Shown piece after piece: positions 58,239 through 64,000 of a stretch of 64,000 nucleotides of DNA. The DNA is from Oscillospiraceae bacterium (lineage in GTDB: Bacteria; Bacillota; Clostridia; Oscillospirales; Ruminococcaceae). The position numbers and the translations under genes are program-made. The DNA lies in the NCBI GenBank assembly GCA_017472735.1, contig JAFUOD010000007.1, positions 62,001 to 126,000 on the forward strand, written 5' to 3'. The notes under the pieces were generated by a model, which saw only the letters and a list, made by a program, of their open reading frames with translations, did not search any database and was not told where the DNA came from. Numbering within the stretch: the first letter of the stretch is position 1; the number at the start of each line of letters is the position of its first letter.

Positions 58239-58712
58239 TTAAATATAATTACGCTCGTCCTTAGCTTCATCAACAAGCATAATTCCGTTTTCTTTATACT
58301 TCTGCAAGAAGAAGTGGGTAGATGTGGAAACAACACCGTTAATAGTAGCAAGGCGCTGTGCTACATATGAAGAAACTTCTCTTATATTCTGGCACTTAAT
58401 AGTAACGGCTAAGTCATAACCGCCCGACATTAATGAAACACTCTCAACCTCGGGATACTGTGCGATATGTCTTGCAATGTCATCATAACCAACCTGTGCC
58501 TGAGGAGTAACCTTAAGCTCTATGTATGCAACAACCGCATCCTTAGAAATAATATCTTCATCAAAAATCGTGCTGTATCCTTTAATTGTGCCATTAGCTT
58601 CAAGCGTTGCAATCATATTCGCAACTTCCGCTTCGTTTTTGTCAAGCATAACCGCAAGCTCTGCATTCGAGAGTCTGGCGTTTGTTTTAAGTAAGCTTAT
58701 AAGTCTATCCAT
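58239..58712 (-). CDS. Lrp/AsnC family transcriptional regulator
   Basis: A 157-residue regulator with an N-terminal HTH (ARLSNAELAVMLDKNEAEVANMIATLEANGTIKGYS) and the RAM ligand domain (VVAYIELKVTPQAQ, DIARHIAQYPEVESVSLMSGGYDL). It heads the operon with the PLP aminotransferase, which it may control in response to an amino acid. GAAAGGACC precedes the ATG. Its promoter has a perfect sigma-A architecture with an inverted repeat in the spacer, consistent with autoregulation. Family firm; ligand unknown. Confidence 0.9.
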   Translation of the reverse strand: MDRLISLLKTNARLSNAELAVMLDKNEAEVANMIATLEANGTIKGYSTIFDEDIISKDAVVAYIELKVTPQAQVGYDDIARHIAQYPEVESVSLMSGGYDLAVTIKCQNIREVSSYVAQRLATINGVVSTSTHFFLQKYKENGIMLVDEAKDERNYI

Positions 58713-58765
58713 AATCAGGTCCTTTCCGCGGCATTAGCCGCCTAAAAAGAAAAATATGCGTATAT

Positions 58766-58794
58766 ATTATAACACTTTAGTGTGTTGGAGTCAA
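58766..58794 (-). promoter_or_regulatory. Sigma-A promoter of the lrp-aminotransferase operon with spacer dyad
   Basis: On the minus strand TTGACT (58789-58794), 17-bp spacer, TATAAT (58766-58771). The spacer holds ACACT-TT-AGTGT (58772-58783), an inverted repeat that could be an operator. Confidence 0.8.
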
Positions 58795-58865
58795 TCGTGT
58801 TGTAAATTTGGTTATATTGTGAAAAAATTAAACTAATAATTTAGAAAAAATATTAGTATTTTCTA

Positions 58866-58894
58866 TTGACATATTTTGCTTCGAGGCTTATAAT
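58866..58894 (+). promoter_or_regulatory. Consensus sigma-A promoter for the ABC exporter leader
   Basis: TTGACA, a 17-bp spacer and TATAAT. Predicted start near 58901. A dyad ATGTTC...GAACAT (58899-58919) overlaps the start site and would form a 5' hairpin in the RNA or an operator. It is divergent from the lrp promoter; the 58795-58865 gap is AT-rich with nothing else seen. Confidence 0.85.
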
Positions 58895-58948
58895 ACAAAT
58901 GTTCGTGTAAGCAGAACATGGATAATATATTACAGAAAGGTGAGTACA

Positions 58949-59026
58949 ATGCTTAAGACTGCAGTTTATAAAAACAGTATTGCAATATCTTTAGTCAGCG
59001 GCATTTGTGTGCCACTTCATAACTAA
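58949..59026 (+). CDS. Leader peptide of the ABC exporter attenuator
   Basis: A 25-codon frame beginning MLKTAVYKN and ending CVPLHN, too short for usual gene finders. It has a strong ribosome-binding site (AGAAAGGTGAG) 5-12 bp upstream and lies about 50 nt into the transcript. Codons 15-19 (TTA GTC AGC GGC ATT) contain the 5' arm of the antiterminator. Ribosome position on this frame would decide between antiterminator and terminator, as in BmrB of Bacillus subtilis upstream of bmrCD. No similarity in peptide sequence to BmrB is claimed. Its only product role is probably regulatory. Confidence 0.7.
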   Translation: MLKTAVYKNSIAISLVSGICVPLHN

Positions 59027-59071
59027 AATTGTATGTTATGTGCCTCTGACTATGCTGTCGGGGGCTTTTTT
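58992..59071 (+). promoter_or_regulatory. Transcription attenuator: antiterminator and intrinsic terminator
   Basis: TAGTCAGcGGCA (58992-59003, inside the leader frame) can pair with TGCCtCTGACTA (59041-59052) with one mismatch, enclosing a small CATAAC/GTTATG hairpin (59018-59040). The second segment otherwise forms the terminator: GCCTCTGAC (59042-59050) with GTCGGGGGC (59057-59065), loop TATGCT, then six T. The two structures exclude each other. A translating ribosome over codons 15-19 should free the terminator; stalling earlier should favour the antiterminator and expression of the exporter. Confidence 0.75.
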
Positions 59072-59112
59072 ATTGCAATTGTTTTTGTGTTACCTATGAA
59101 AGGGGGAATTTT

Positions 59113-61503
59113 ATGAAACACTTTGACGTGCTGCCGGAGCTTGTTAAAAACGAGCTTTACAAGCGTGGTGTGCCGACAGATGAGCTTTTATATTGCGTAA
59201 AGGCTGATCTTGACGGTGAAGGCTGTTATATTGACGTTTATGTTACCTTTACACAAAGCACTTTGTTTGTTATTAAAGGCTACGAAGAGTACAGGCAGCT
59301 CGGCTCTAAGGAAAGGTTCAGGGAAAAAGCTCAGAACACACCCGTTTTAAAAAGCTTTGTCCGAGGAAATAACGTTCCTGAAATAATTCAGTATAAAACA
59401 GTAGATTATGACGAATATGACATTTCAAAAATCAAGCGGATTTATGTTGACCGTCATCAGAATTCAGCGCAGCTTGTTGTTACGCTGTTAAACAACGGCG
59501 AAACAGAAGATTTTGATGAAAACTATTCGCGCAGCGATCAATACGACACCGAGCATAAGAACGTTTCCATTGCCCGTTTTTCGTTAGGCTTTGCTGAAAA
59601 ATTTGAGAAATTCTGTGACCGAGTTAACATGACTCACCGTCACGAGGAGATTGATGACACACTTTTAGACAGTGTTAAAACCCACTGCCCAATCTGTCAT
59701 CAGCCTTATCCCGATCCCAATCGTCCCGTTTGTCCTAAGTGTGTAGACTCACGCTCTATCTTCAAGCGACTTGCAGAAATGTTTAAAGATTTCAAGGGTT
59801 CGATACTTTTGATATTCATGACAATTTTGCTCTCTAATTTGTTTGCTGTAATTTCGCCTTGGTTCGGTTCAAAGCTTTTATATGACGACGTTTTGACTGA
59901 AGGCGGAAGATATTACGGTCAGGTGCTGTTTGTTATCATGCTGATGTTTGCTACCGATATTTTAGGCAAACTGACCGGTGTGGTTTCAGGTGTAGTAACA
60001 GCCAAGGTCGTTCCAAAGGTTACTCATCAGTTAAGAACTAAGATTTACTCTTCAATGCAGAATCTTTCTTTGCAGTTCTTTACAAGCAAGCAGACAGGTT
60101 CGCTTATGTCACGAGTTGACCGTGACAGTAACAATGTTTACAACTTCTTTGTTGATATTGTGCCTTACGGCATCGCAAACATAGTTAAGCTTGTCGGCGT
60201 TGTTGCAATTATGTTTACACTAAGCCCTGTTATTTCTCTCTTAATTTTAACCATTATCGTGTTTGTTTTAGCGCTCGATAACTACCTTTATAAATCTCAG
60301 CGTAAACTTTATCGCAAGTTAGATGTTGCAATGCGAAGCTTAAACTCTGTGTTGTCCGATGTCATGAACGGTCAGCGTGTTGTTAAAAGCTTTGCAAAAG
60401 AGGATAAGGAAATAAGACGTTACCGCAAAAAGAATAAAGATGCTTATGAGGTTAACGACAGGATCAACAACCGAATTGCCAACACAATTCCTTTCATGTG
60501 GAGCTTCTACCGTTTAATCAGTACAGGTCTTTTCTGCTTTGGCTGTTACCTTGTAATGAAGGGTCACTTTAAATACGGTACTCTTACCGCATTGCTTTCT
60601 TACACCAACATGGTTTACGAGCCTATAGACTTCTTTATGTGGATAGGTGACCGCTGGGCAAGATGTATGGACGCGGCATCCCGTATGTTTGAAATTTTGG
60701 ATGCTAAGCCTACCGTTGCTGAAGCTGATGAACCGATAAGAATGGATACCTTTAAGGGCGATATCGAATTTAAGAATGTTTCGTTTGAATATGAAGCCGG
60801 CAGACAGATCTTAAAGAATCTTTCCTTTAAGGTTGAGGGCGGACAGATGTTCGGTATTGTTGGTAAGACCGGCGCCGGAAAGTCAACCATAATTAACCTC
60901 ATGGCTCGTATGTATGACGTATCGGGCGGCGAGATTCTGATTGACGGTGTGCCGATAAAAAAGATTGCAACTCAGGATTTGCGCCGAAACATCGGCATCG
61001 TTTCGCAGGAGACGTACTTGTTCATAGGTACTGTTGCCGATAATATTCGTTACGCTAACCCCAATGCCACTATCGAAGAGGTTATCGAGGCTGCAAAATC
61101 AGCAAATGCACACGAGTTTATTACTAAGCTTCCCGATGGTTACAACACAAAAATCGGTTCGGGCGGCGTGTCTCTCTCGGGCGGCGAACGCCAGCGTATT
61201 TCTATTGCGCGTGCAATAATTCAGAATCCCAGTATTCTTATTCTTGACGAAGCAACCGCTTCCATGGATACAAGGACTGAGCGTAAGATTCAGGTTGCTA
61301 TCGACGCTCTTAAAGAGGGCAGAACCATTATTTCCATTGCTCACAGACTTTCAACTCTGCGTGATGCGGATATGCTTTGCGTAATTGAACACGGCGAGCT
61401 TAAGGAACTTGGCACGCACGATACACTCATTCGCCAAAAGGGTAAATATTTCGAGCTTTACAGACTCCAGTCGGATGCTTTGAAGTTCATTGAAATGGGT
61501 TGA
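59113..61503 (+). CDS. ABC exporter half-transporter, subunit 1, with N-terminal extension and zinc ribbon
   Basis: A 796-residue type IV-like (multidrug-type) ABC exporter subunit. Residues 1-190 form a soluble extension of unknown fold; CPICHQPYPDPNRPVCPKC at about 193-211 is a zinc ribbon. Then come six membrane helices (about 230-545) and an ATPase domain with Walker A GKTGAGKS near 588, signature LSGGERQRI near 688 and Walker B ILILDEA with the catalytic glutamate. The transmembrane unit and ATPase are intact. It is followed by a DUF1854 gene and a second half-transporter, so it probably acts as a heterodimer. Expression is controlled by the upstream attenuator. Drug or peptide export is inferred from family and regulation; substrate unknown. 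Confidence 0.88.
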   Translation: MKHFDVLPELVKNELYKRGVPTDELLYCVKADLDGEGCYIDVYVTFTQSTLFVIKGYEEYRQLGSKERFREKAQNTPVLKSFVRGNNVPEIIQYKTVDYDEYDISKIKRIYVDRHQNSAQLVVTLLNNGETEDFDENYSRSDQYDTEHKNVSIARFSLGFAEKFEKFCDRVNMTHRHEEIDDTLLDSVKTHCPICHQPYPDPNRPVCPKCVDSRSIFKRLAEMFKDFKGSILLIFMTILLSNLFAVISPWFGSKLLYDDVLTEGGRYYGQVLFVIMLMFATDILGKLTGVVSGVVTAKVVPKVTHQLRTKIYSSMQNLSLQFFTSKQTGSLMSRVDRDSNNVYNFFVDIVPYGIANIVKLVGVVAIMFTLSPVISLLILTIIVFVLALDNYLYKSQRKLYRKLDVAMRSLNSVLSDVMNGQRVVKSFAKEDKEIRRYRKKNKDAYEVNDRINNRIANTIPFMWSFYRLISTGLFCFGCYLVMKGHFKYGTLTALLSYTNMVYEPIDFFMWIGDRWARCMDAASRMFEILDAKPTVAEADEPIRMDTFKGDIEFKNVSFEYEAGRQILKNLSFKVEGGQMFGIVGKTGAGKSTIINLMARMYDVSGGEILIDGVPIKKIATQDLRRNIGIVSQETYLFIGTVADNIRYANPNATIEEVIEAAKSANAHEFITKLPDGYNTKIGSGGVSLSGGERQRISIARAIIQNPSILILDEATASMDTRTERKIQVAIDALKEGRTIISIAHRLSTLRDADMLCVIEHGELKELGTHDTLIRQKGKYFELYRLQSDALKFIEMG

Positions 61504-61531: not shown

Positions 61532-62080
61532 ATGGATAATTCAGCTAAAAAGGAATTGGAGCTTGAAAAGTTTGAAATAGACAGACTTGTCATTTTAGAC
61601 GCATCAAAGCTTAAGTTCTATAAAGACCAAAGCGGATTTATGTCGCTTGAATTTGAAGGCAAAGATTATTTCAACGTAAGACTCACTCGACTGACACCTT
61701 TCTATTCTAAAACTACATATATAAGTGTAGCTTATGAGAATGATGAAAGAGAGTTTAAAGAGATAGGCGTTATTAAGGATATGAAAGAGCTTTCTGAAGA
61801 ACAGTATAAGCTTGTTGATGATTATTTAGAATATAAATATTACATGCCCGAAATAACTAAAGTCCATTCAATTAAAGATAACTCCCGCGGATTTATTTTT
61901 GTTGACGTTGAAACCACGTCCGGCAGAAAAACTATATGTATACGAGACTGGTATTCAAATTTCAGACTCTTGACAGATAAGTTTTTATATGCTTATGATG
62001 TTGACGGAAATAAATATTTCTGTGATGATATCGGCAAGCTCGACCGTAAGAGTCTTGCAGTTTTAGAAATTTACATTTAA
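61532..62080 (+). CDS. DUF1854 family protein
   Basis: A 182-residue soluble protein of the DUF1854 family; no function is established. Beta-rich segments such as FMSLEFEGKDYFNVRLTRLTPF, then VDVETTSGRKTICIRDWY, alternate with an acidic helical stretch (KELSEEQYKLVDDYLEYKYYMPEI). I start it at ATG 61532, after AAGGAGGA; a longer frame from 61490 overlaps the ABC gene. It lies between two ABC half-transporter genes and recurs in this position in Clostridia, so it probably works with the exporter. Mechanism unknown. Confidence 0.82.
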   Translation: MDNSAKKELELEKFEIDRLVILDASKLKFYKDQSGFMSLEFEGKDYFNVRLTRLTPFYSKTTYISVAYENDEREFKEIGVIKDMKELSEEQYKLVDDYLEYKYYMPEITKVHSIKDNSRGFIFVDVETTSGRKTICIRDWYSNFRLLTDKFLYAYDVDGNKYFCDDIGKLDRKSLAVLEIYI

Positions 62081-62113: not shown

Positions 62114-64000
62114 ATGAATTTAAAACTTTCTGCACCCGAGGGTATAGAGCTTGACAGCCTTGTCTTTTCACTTCCGTTCAATATCAACAGCTCCGATAGG
62201 CGAGTGAACGGTCACTTGTGTGTCTCCCGCGAGGAGATAATGGTATATATCAACGGAGAGCTTAAAGAAGCTTTTGAGTTTAATAAATATGAAGAATACG
62301 CTTGTGAGCAGCTTGTCGGCTGTTCAATGATGGTAGGCAAAATTGATGATAAAGATGTTAAATGCATCTGTGCCTTCACCCAGGATAATTTTGTTGCTTT
62401 TGCCGAGCTTTGCAAGCTTTTAAACCACCATCTTACAACAGGCGAGTTTATTACCGAAAGTGACATTGACGAGCCTAAGTGCCCCAAGTGTCATCTGCCT
62501 CTTGACGGCTATTCGGAATGTCCTTACTGCCAATCGAAGATAAAGGTGTTCTCGAAACTTTTAAAGCGTGTAGCGCCTTATAAAAAGCCATTTGCGGTTG
62601 CAATTCTGTGCACGATCATTGCACAGCTTTTGGGTGTTATTGAGCCATATGTCAACCGTATTTTGGTTGATGATTATGTTATTCCCATGAATACCTCGAA
62701 CTGGACAGGTTTTGGTATTTTATGCGGTGCAATGCTGCTGATCGTCATAATCAACACGATACTTGATTATATCAACATGAAGTGCAGCTTTCGCGTTGCA
62801 CTTAACTTAGGCCAGGACCTTCGTCAGGACGTGTTTAACAAAACGCTTGATCTTTCAATGTCCTCGATCTCTAAGAAAACTGCCGGTGAGCTTATCAACC
62901 GTGTTTCCAACGATGCCAATAAGCTCCAAAGCTTTATCACCGATAACGGTAAAAATGCAATCGTTAGAATAATGTCGCTAATCATCATTGCGATTATTCT
63001 GTTTGTTATGAACTGGAAGCTTGCTTTAATGGCGGTTTTGCCTATTCCTTTGGCTGTATACATTGTTAAGAAGCTTTATAACGTAATCCACATGCATTTC
63101 GGCAGATCGTGGAGATTTAATAACGCACATTCTAAGCTTTTGCACGATACCTTAAACGGCATTCGAGTTGTAAAAACCTGCGGCACTGAAAAGGACGAAA
63201 TTGTTAGATACGAGCAGGCTTCAGGTAAGTGGGCAAGTGCCGCTTCCCGTGCCGAGGTTGTGTGGTCGTTAATTTGGCCGGTAACCAACTTTGTAATGAC
63301 TCTCGGTCATTTCTTTGTACTTTACTTTGGTTCATTAATGATCTTAAACAAGATACCCGGCTTAGGTTCAATGTCTTTAGGTCAGCTCATTCAGTTTACC
63401 TCTTATGTTTCAATGCTTTATAATCCGCTTCGTTGGCTTATGCAGTTGCCGCGAACCTTGGCTGATGTATCTATCAGTGCTTCTAAAGTATTTGAAATTT
63501 TGGAGGAGCAGACCGATGTCAGGGATGACAAGGACTGCGTTGACCTCGACATAAAAGGTGATATTGATTTTAACCACGTTTTCTTTGGCTACAAGGTTTA
63601 TAACCCTGTACTTAAAGATATTACCTGCAAGCTCGAACAAGGCAAAATGTATGGCATTGTCGGTCATTCCGGCGTAGGCAAGTCAACAATGATAAACCTT
63701 ATTTTAAGACTTTACGATGCAACACAGGGCTCGGTTAAAATCGACGGCGTTGATATCAAAAAGATATCTCAACAAAGCTTGCGTTCGCAGGTCGGCGTTG
63801 TTCTGCAGGAGACTTATCTCTTTGAAGGCAGCATATTAGACAATATCTCTTACGCTAAGCCCGATGCTACCTTTGAAGAAATCATTGATGCCGCAAAGGT
63901 TGCTCACGCTCACGAGTTTATTACAAAGTTGCCTGACGGTTACAATACCCGTGTCGGTAACAAGGGTCACACGCTTTCGGGCGGTGAGAGACAGAGAATT
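62114..64000 (+). CDS. ABC exporter half-transporter, subunit 2 (3' end outside window)
   Basis: The frame is open to the right edge (629 codons), so no stop is seen. The first 120 residues are a soluble extension, then a zinc ribbon CPKCHLPLDGYSECPYC at about residues 124-140, six membrane helices (about 150-430), and an ATPase domain with Walker A GHSGVGKST near 518 and the signature LSGGERQRI at the very end. The Walker B glutamate lies outside, so I cannot say whether this site is degenerate, as it often is in heterodimeric exporters. GAAAGGGGTG precedes the ATG at 62114. It shares the extension-plus-ribbon layout with subunit 1, so the two probably arose by duplication. Confidence 0.88.
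   Translation, partial: MNLKLSAPEGIELDSLVFSLPFNINSSDRRVNGHLCVSREEIMVYINGELKEAFEFNKYEEYACEQLVGCSMMVGKIDDKDVKCICAFTQDNFVAFAELCKLLNHHLTTGEFITESDIDEPKCPKCHLPLDGYSECPYCQSKIKVFSKLLKRVAPYKKPFAVAILCTIIAQLLGVIEPYVNRILVDDYVIPMNTSNWTGFGILCGAMLLIVIINTILDYINMKCSFRVALNLGQDLRQDVFNKTLDLSMSSISKKTAGELINRVSNDANKLQSFITDNGKNAIVRIMSLIIIAIILFVMNWKLALMAVLPIPLAVYIVKKLYNVIHMHFGRSWRFNNAHSKLLHDTLNGIRVVKTCGTEKDEIVRYEQASGKWASAASRAEVVWSLIWPVTNFVMTLGHFFVLYFGSLMILNKIPGLGSMSLGQLIQFTSYVSMLYNPLRWLMQLPRTLADVSISASKVFEILEEQTDVRDDKDCVDLDIKGDIDFNHVFFGYKVYNPVLKDITCKLEQGKMYGIVGHSGVGKSTMINLILRLYDATQGSVKIDGVDIKKISQQSLRSQVGVVLQETYLFEGSILDNISYAKPDATFEEIIDAAKVAHAHEFITKLPDGYNTRVGNKGHTLSGGERQRI

Follow-up and report, generated by a model that had tools for sequence, protein, structure and literature searches.

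The exporter locus and its leader region

The window, i.e., the whole stretch of 64,000 nucleotides that was analysed, carries an operon in which a DUF1854 gene lies between the genes of two ABC half transporters. A promoter, a short leader ORF and an intrinsic terminator precede the first ABC gene. The features, in order, are as follows.

58866-58894, plus strand: sigma-A type promoter, TTGACA-17-TATAAT, 12 of 12 consensus matches
58900-58924, plus strand: 5'-terminal hairpin of the predicted transcript, in both the minimum free energy and the centroid structures
58936-58944, plus strand: ribosome-binding site of the leader ORF, AAAGGTGAG, read from the sequence
58949-59026, plus strand: leader ORF of 25 codons and a stop, MLKTAVYKNSIAISLVSGICVPLHN, with counterparts at 50 other loci
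58973-58990, plus strand: leader codons 9-14 (NSIAIS), aligning with the N-x-I-R-M site of genus relatives
58992-59003, plus strand: 5' arm of the predicted antiterminator, within the leader ORF (codons 15-19)
59000-59013, plus strand: small hairpin GGCAU/GUGCC, competing with the 3' end of the antiterminator arm (from the fold of 59000-59073)
59041-59052, plus strand: 3' arm of the predicted antiterminator, overlapping the terminator 5' arm
59042-59071, plus strand: intrinsic terminator, stem 59042-59065 (9 pairs, 6 of them G-C), T-run 59066-59071 (six T)
59113-61503, plus strand: first ABC half transporter (796 aa), extended at its N-terminus and bearing two Cys-x2-Cys pairs
61532-62080, plus strand: DUF1854 protein, probably starting with this ATG (in the ORF list it begins at a TTG, 61490)
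62114-64000, plus strand: second ABC half transporter, 736 aa, continuing to 64324, outside the window

Walker A, LSGGERQ and Walker B were read by eye and are complete in both ABC proteins. As two different half transporters are encoded, a heterodimeric exporter is plausible. The DUF1854 protein passes the gathering cut-off of PF08909 with 108.6 bits against 26.8. The nearest NCBIfam models are NF052233 and NF052234, named for a cyanophycin metabolism-associated ABC transporter and DUF1854 protein; their curated cut-offs were not reached by the first half (533.9 against 880), by the DUF1854 protein (44.9 against 150) or, cut off by the window end, by the second half (362.9 against 880 for the ABC model).

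Both ABC halves carry extensions before the membrane part (window positions 59113-59760 and 62114-62560) that are without a Pfam match and are weakly alike at most. The Cys-x2-Cys pairs read CPIC..CPKC in the first half and CPKC..CPYC in the second. The idea that these extensions are DUF1854-like domains was dropped, as no likeness to DUF1854 was seen. As for the surroundings, a divergent Lrp/AsnC-type gene lies upstream (58239-58712, minus strand), with a promoter-like site of its own at 58766-58794 (minus strand, 11 of 12 matches, TG ahead of the -10). After the operon, beyond the end of the window, a gene that matches the APH phosphotransferase family (PF01636) with 85.9 bits converges on it at 64371-65175 in window coordinates, on the minus strand, and a hairpin with a T-run was read by eye between the two.

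In 58700-59200, no second consensus promoter was found on the plus strand; transcripts of the one promoter must therefore cross the terminator to reach the operon. The same interval holds one intrinsic terminator over both strands, against 0.3 expected, and it begins 15 nt past the leader stop. The promoter, the 25-codon frame and its ribosome-binding site had been reported by an earlier, sequence-only reading of this DNA, and all of them are present where it had placed them.

Two alternative predicted RNA structures

The same reading had described two mutually exclusive RNA structures, with the antiterminator arm in codons 15-19, and these too are found as described. Bases 59042-59050 are common to the antiterminator and the terminator, so the formation of one excludes the other. 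The antiterminator duplex, TAGTCAGCGGCA with TGCCTCTGACTA, has 11 of 12 positions paired at -18.6 kcal/mol. It is equalled by 1 of 400 codon-shuffled leaders (p 0.005) and by 0 of 400 dinucleotide-shuffled ones (p 0.002). Across leaders, the codon-shuffle duplex test is often not significant for a single one, and p<0.05 was reached in 7 of 42.

Folding of the full leader (58900-59080), a check suggested together with that description, indeed gives a minimum-energy structure that includes the terminator. The partial transcript 58991-59055, which ends in the terminator loop, adopts the antiterminator fold (z -2.8; 2 of 200 shuffles as good). Moving the start back to 58975 gives this fold again, though less strikingly (z -1.4; 24 of 200). 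When the first eight bases of the arm are left out (59000-59073), the terminator and the GGCAU/GUGCC hairpin form, with a z of -5.7 and 0 of 200 shuffles as good.

Recurrence among relatives

Of the 31 genus genomes, 29 have DUF1854; so do 53 of 396 genomes sampled across the family and 106 of 295 sampled across the order. Upstream regions of the first ABC gene were taken from 28 genus loci and 40 of 45 other family loci, followed by 8 from two of those family genera and 32 from elsewhere in the order (one of these without an ABC match). One extra leader, L164, came from a pattern search. The curated set, including the window, holds 51 leaders of 19 to 51 residues, of which 25 come from the genus and 26 from six further genera.

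The leader is present in 25 of the 31 genus genomes. Three genus loci (L057, L058 and L059) are leaderless; in these, 78 nt separate the start of the promoter match from the first ABC gene, and no leader ORF or terminator lies between the two. As for the other genus genomes, the contigs of G002 and G020 end too early, and G030 has no DUF1854 match. A promoter match lies at most 130 nt from the leader ORF in 42 of the 51 leaders. The leader ORFs were selected for having a ribosome-binding site, and its presence is, therefore, not independent evidence.

One fixed rule (leader ORF plus terminator), drawn up after the leaders had been seen, is passed by 50 of the 53 loci that share the window's ABC clade and by 3 of the other 47; the clade label stands for leader presence plus the three leaderless genus loci and agrees with the ABC tree. 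Block-shuffled upstream regions pass in 0 of 100 cases, and 9 of 109 loci were too short to judge, including L118, whose leader was curated by hand. The three loci passing outside the clade are L112, L140 and L153, and these may be terminators of upstream genes.

In the ABC tree, built from 97 first-ABC proteins by a quick method with a midpoint root, all 49 leader rows fall within one supported group of 52. The other three rows are two leaderless loci and one contig end; L066 is labelled 'none' on the tree only because its contig stops 83 nt upstream. The simplest reading of this history is a single origin of the leader and one later loss. Leader-like copies elsewhere in the genus genomes were also considered and rejected: the exact pattern gave one match in each of 10 of the 31 genomes, nine at the exporter locus and one antisense in a gene that by eye resembles gatA. 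The same layout is met in related genera with very different leader peptides, and the locus is on this account a believable candidate for a known kind of switch.

Predicted dependence on the position of the ribosome

The folded RNA ran from an assumed ribosome edge, set 12 nt past the A site, as far as the terminator loop; sequestration was taken as the fraction of the terminator 5' arm paired upstream. With the ribosome at codon 5, mean sequestration over the 51 leaders is 0.72 against 0.52 in codon-shuffled leaders (p=1.2e-7). When related leaders are gathered into 20 clusters, the values are 0.75 and 0.51 (p=1.9e-6). Reverse-complementing the terminator arm leaves a small excess without significance (0.55 compared with 0.52), with p=0.09 over the clusters and 0.11 over all leaders. 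Taken singly, 15 of the 51 leaders reach 0.05 in this test, and seven (L049, L050, L069, L075, L082, L107 and L113) score lower than the mean of their own shuffles. The ORF of L050 extends 16 nt into the terminator and that of L056 14 nt, so that a ribosome at the stop codon could disturb the terminator too.

In the window, sequestration is 0.88 through A-site codon 12, falls to 0.04 at codon 13 and stays at or below 0.32 later. The predicted switch thus lies between A-site codons 12 and 13.

Whole leaders were also folded from the predicted start with no ribosome. Among the 42 leaders with a promoter match, sequestration drops by more than 0.2 in 20, with a mean change of -0.22 (p=3.6e-7). 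In the folding model, this drop agrees with a requirement for a stalled ribosome, such as is reported for BmrB (PMC4191407). The window leader still gives 0.84 in the ribosome-free fold, and a plain absence of translation is, therefore, predicted to open its switch too.

Covariation of the two structures

The sequence-only reading had proposed that covarying pairs be sought in other Clostridia. The terminator shows covariation clearly; within the group of the window, the signal of the antiterminator is weak. Across 13 aligned genus leaders, 90.1% of the terminator cells are paired and 14 cells are changed on both sides, and 0 of 500 shuffles are as good on three of five measures (pairing, double changes and score). 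For the antiterminator, whose columns in this alignment were fixed by the window, 59.7% of cells are paired against 56.7% in shuffles, with 9 double-changed cells against 6.8; depending on the measure, 71 to 291 of 500 shuffles are as good. Compared with six slid versions, it has the most paired cells and the best score, though one of the rows was its source.

RNAalifold on ten genus leaders returned no consensus pairs. Five leaders from two other genera have 96.4% of the antiterminator paired, in columns that vary too little for this to count as covariation. A third group of seven leaders (L049, L051, L052, L054, L060, L061 and L075) gave an upstream hairpin, GATAC/GTATC, holding the antiterminator arm, along with a second hairpin near the stop codon and three antiterminator-like pairs; none of the pairs is changed on both sides. 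In its modelled structure, this subgroup resembles a four-segment attenuator. As its covariation is weak, the antiterminator rests on the shuffle test instead.

These results bear on a rival explanation, in which basal expression is kept low by a partial terminator that acts constitutively, the ORF and the antiterminator being incidental. The weak covariation of the antiterminator and the many single leaders that do no better than shuffled ones are in its favour. It sits poorly with the sequestration excess over the 20 clusters, which is not significant with the flipped arm, and with the retention of both leader ORF and terminator at 50 of the 53 clade loci. We hold this explanation to be improbable.

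Drift of the leader peptide and the N-x-I-R-M site

The leader peptides differ greatly, with a pN/pS of 0.72 summed over pairs within nine groups. Constraint on the peptide is thus weak, and a functional peptide encoded by the leader was rejected as an explanation. Among the 12 pairs that share at least 80% of their nucleotides, all gaps have lengths divisible by three; in more distant pairs, this is often not so. The reading frame is, therefore, kept among close pairs while the peptide drifts.

Amid this freely drifting sequence, part of the genus leaders have one near-invariant island, mostly placed just ahead of the antiterminator region. An in-frame Ile(ATA)-Arg(CGA) is found in 13 of the 25 genus leaders and in 0 of the 26 others; these rows are related, and 13 of 25 is not a tally of independent events. 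The peptide reads N-x-I-R-M in 11 of the 13, with Cys next in 8 of these. In the 11 rows aligned on the site, ATACGA is invariant and ATACGAATG is found in ten, while the flanks are much less conserved. The site and the terminator are the conserved islands in the alignment of 13 genus leaders, which covers the sequence from the ORF onward. CGA makes up 31 of the 77 arginine codons of the genus leaders, against 22 of 592 in the first ABC genes of 12 species with the site. L064 belongs to the N-x-I-R-M group without having the site, and L054, of the GATAC/GTATC subgroup, also has the in-frame ATA-CGA.

It is possible, though doubtful, that N-x-I(ATA)-R(CGA)-M, often followed by Cys, acts as a built-in ribosome pause in part of the family, which would make it a new arrest or slow-decoding motif. 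If so, the pause would let the switch respond to certain inhibitors of the ribosome or to rare-codon decoding, and the fast-changing leaders would be a natural library of the ribosome stresses sensed by these Clostridia. A placement of the site exactly at the switch codon was rejected, as the half-plateau positions in the 13 leaders of this group and in the window make it only suggestive. The half-plateau codon lies 1 or 2 codons past the Ile in five (L048, L055, L064, L070 and the window) and 4 past it in two (L067 and L074), and it is not near the Ile in seven (L050, L056, L068, L069, L071, L072 and L164). R-x-R is a macrolide-stalling motif. As a general motif of these leaders it was also rejected, since it fits those with [R/K]-I-R and not those with L-, F- or V-I-R, nor the S-I-A of the window.

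The same arginine codons could point to amino-acid attenuation, where a scarce charged tRNA (e.g., that for arginine) would stall the leader ribosome and open the operon. The Ile-Arg(CGA) of the 13 genus leaders, mostly just before the antiterminator region, and the share of CGA would agree with it. Against it, no residue run recurs among the 51 leaders, runs of at least three being confined to L054 (SSS), L087 (NNN), L116 (AAAAA) and L119 (NNNN), and the leaders of the window, L108, L109, L113 and L118 are without any arginine; the explanation is thus very unlikely. Just as unlikely is a riboswitch-like RNA that operates the terminator by binding a ligand or protein, with the ORF as a by-product: the 5' hairpin ahead of the ORF would suit it, and against it stand the absence of any Rfam family at gathering score in 58700-59400 (best L10_leader, 21.7 bits against 44), the location of the conserved islands at the N-x-I-R-M site and the terminator, and the frame maintained among close pairs.

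A probable translation-coupled attenuator

The leader is most probably a translation-coupled transcription attenuator of the exporter operon. In the window, a short ORF with its ribosome-binding site lies ahead of an intrinsic terminator on one transcript; by computed folding, an antiterminator within the ORF excludes the terminator and depends on the ribosome position. The parts, their recurrence in one clade and the above-chance sequestration dependent on the ribosome position were all computed here. The sequence-only reading had advanced a leader-peptide attenuator, and this is upheld by the seven genera, the frames kept and the ribosome-dependent sequestration above chance; its interpretation overall is partly supported.

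The proposed course of events is as follows. RNA polymerase would start at about 58901 and make the leader ORF, which would be translated at once. A ribosome keeping pace would pass codon 12 and cover or clear the antiterminator arm at 58992-59003. The terminator (59042-59065) would then form, and transcription would end ahead of the exporter genes. If the ribosome lagged or stopped no later than about codon 12, the arm would stay free and capture the terminator 5' arm during synthesis, and the polymerase would continue into the ABC, DUF1854 and ABC genes.

We infer that the leader ORF is translated and that termination occurs in the cell. By analogy with BmrB, the natural signal would be translation inhibition, most likely by ribosome-acting compounds, and the exporter may remove such compounds or otherwise help under that stress.

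Searches of the open PubMed Central literature found no description of such an attenuator for an ABC / DUF1854 / ABC operon; the kind of attenuator and attenuated ABC exporters as such are known. The same searches found no mention of DUF1854, alone or with an ABC transporter, and nothing on a cyanophycin metabolism-associated ABC transporter. The leader predicts the regulation, and hence the inducer class (translation stress), for a DUF1854-linked exporter. DUF1854 is found in 106 of the 295 sampled order genomes and the leader in one clade of seven genera. The approximately 50 natural variants of one switch can also serve to test how leader peptides drift while the RNA logic stays.

Comparison with known systems

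A survey of premature terminators noted that ABC transporter genes are often attenuated, with 205 candidates predicted at the level of the class; among its ABC-leaders, the accessible text names neither a DUF1854 operon nor a leader-ORF model of such an operon (PMC2965389). The PatAB exporter operon of Streptococcus pneumoniae is likewise preceded by a predicted terminator, antiterminator and anti-antiterminator. However, the available portion of that account describes no leader peptide, and the inducers are fluoroquinolones and DNA damage (PMC4319486). In ermC and cat-86, a drug-slowed ribosome on a short ORF alters the expression of a resistance gene; ermC is controlled in translation via the ribosome-binding site (PMC4191407), whereas the window would act through a transcription terminator.

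The closest parallel in mechanism is BmrB-BmrCD of Bacillus subtilis, where a leader ORF, a terminator, an antiterminator and a possible anti-antiterminator are reported, with the position of the ribosome as the sensor (PMC4191407). By prediction, the window shares with it a small leader ORF, an intrinsic terminator, an antiterminator and perhaps an anti-antiterminator before two ABC half-transporter genes. Among solved structures, BmrD is not the best match of the first exporter half: YheH (BmrD) matched it with an E of 1.7e-87 and was outscored by others, including ABCB1 entries and TM288. The BmrB leader is 53 residues long and contains the terminator within its ORF (PMC4191407), whereas the window leader has 25 codons and a terminator 15 nt after the stop. 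When bmrB is not translated, expression falls and induction is lost (PMC4191407); the window leader, unlike BmrB, is predicted to allow read-through with no ribosome. The DUF1854 gene between the exporter halves is a further difference from BmrCD. A rare-codon pause at the N-x-I-R-M site would, in turn, recall BmrB, where rare codons seem to raise read-through (PMC4191407). Thus, the switch of the window would work like that of BmrB-BmrCD, a likeness of mechanism and not a claim of common descent.
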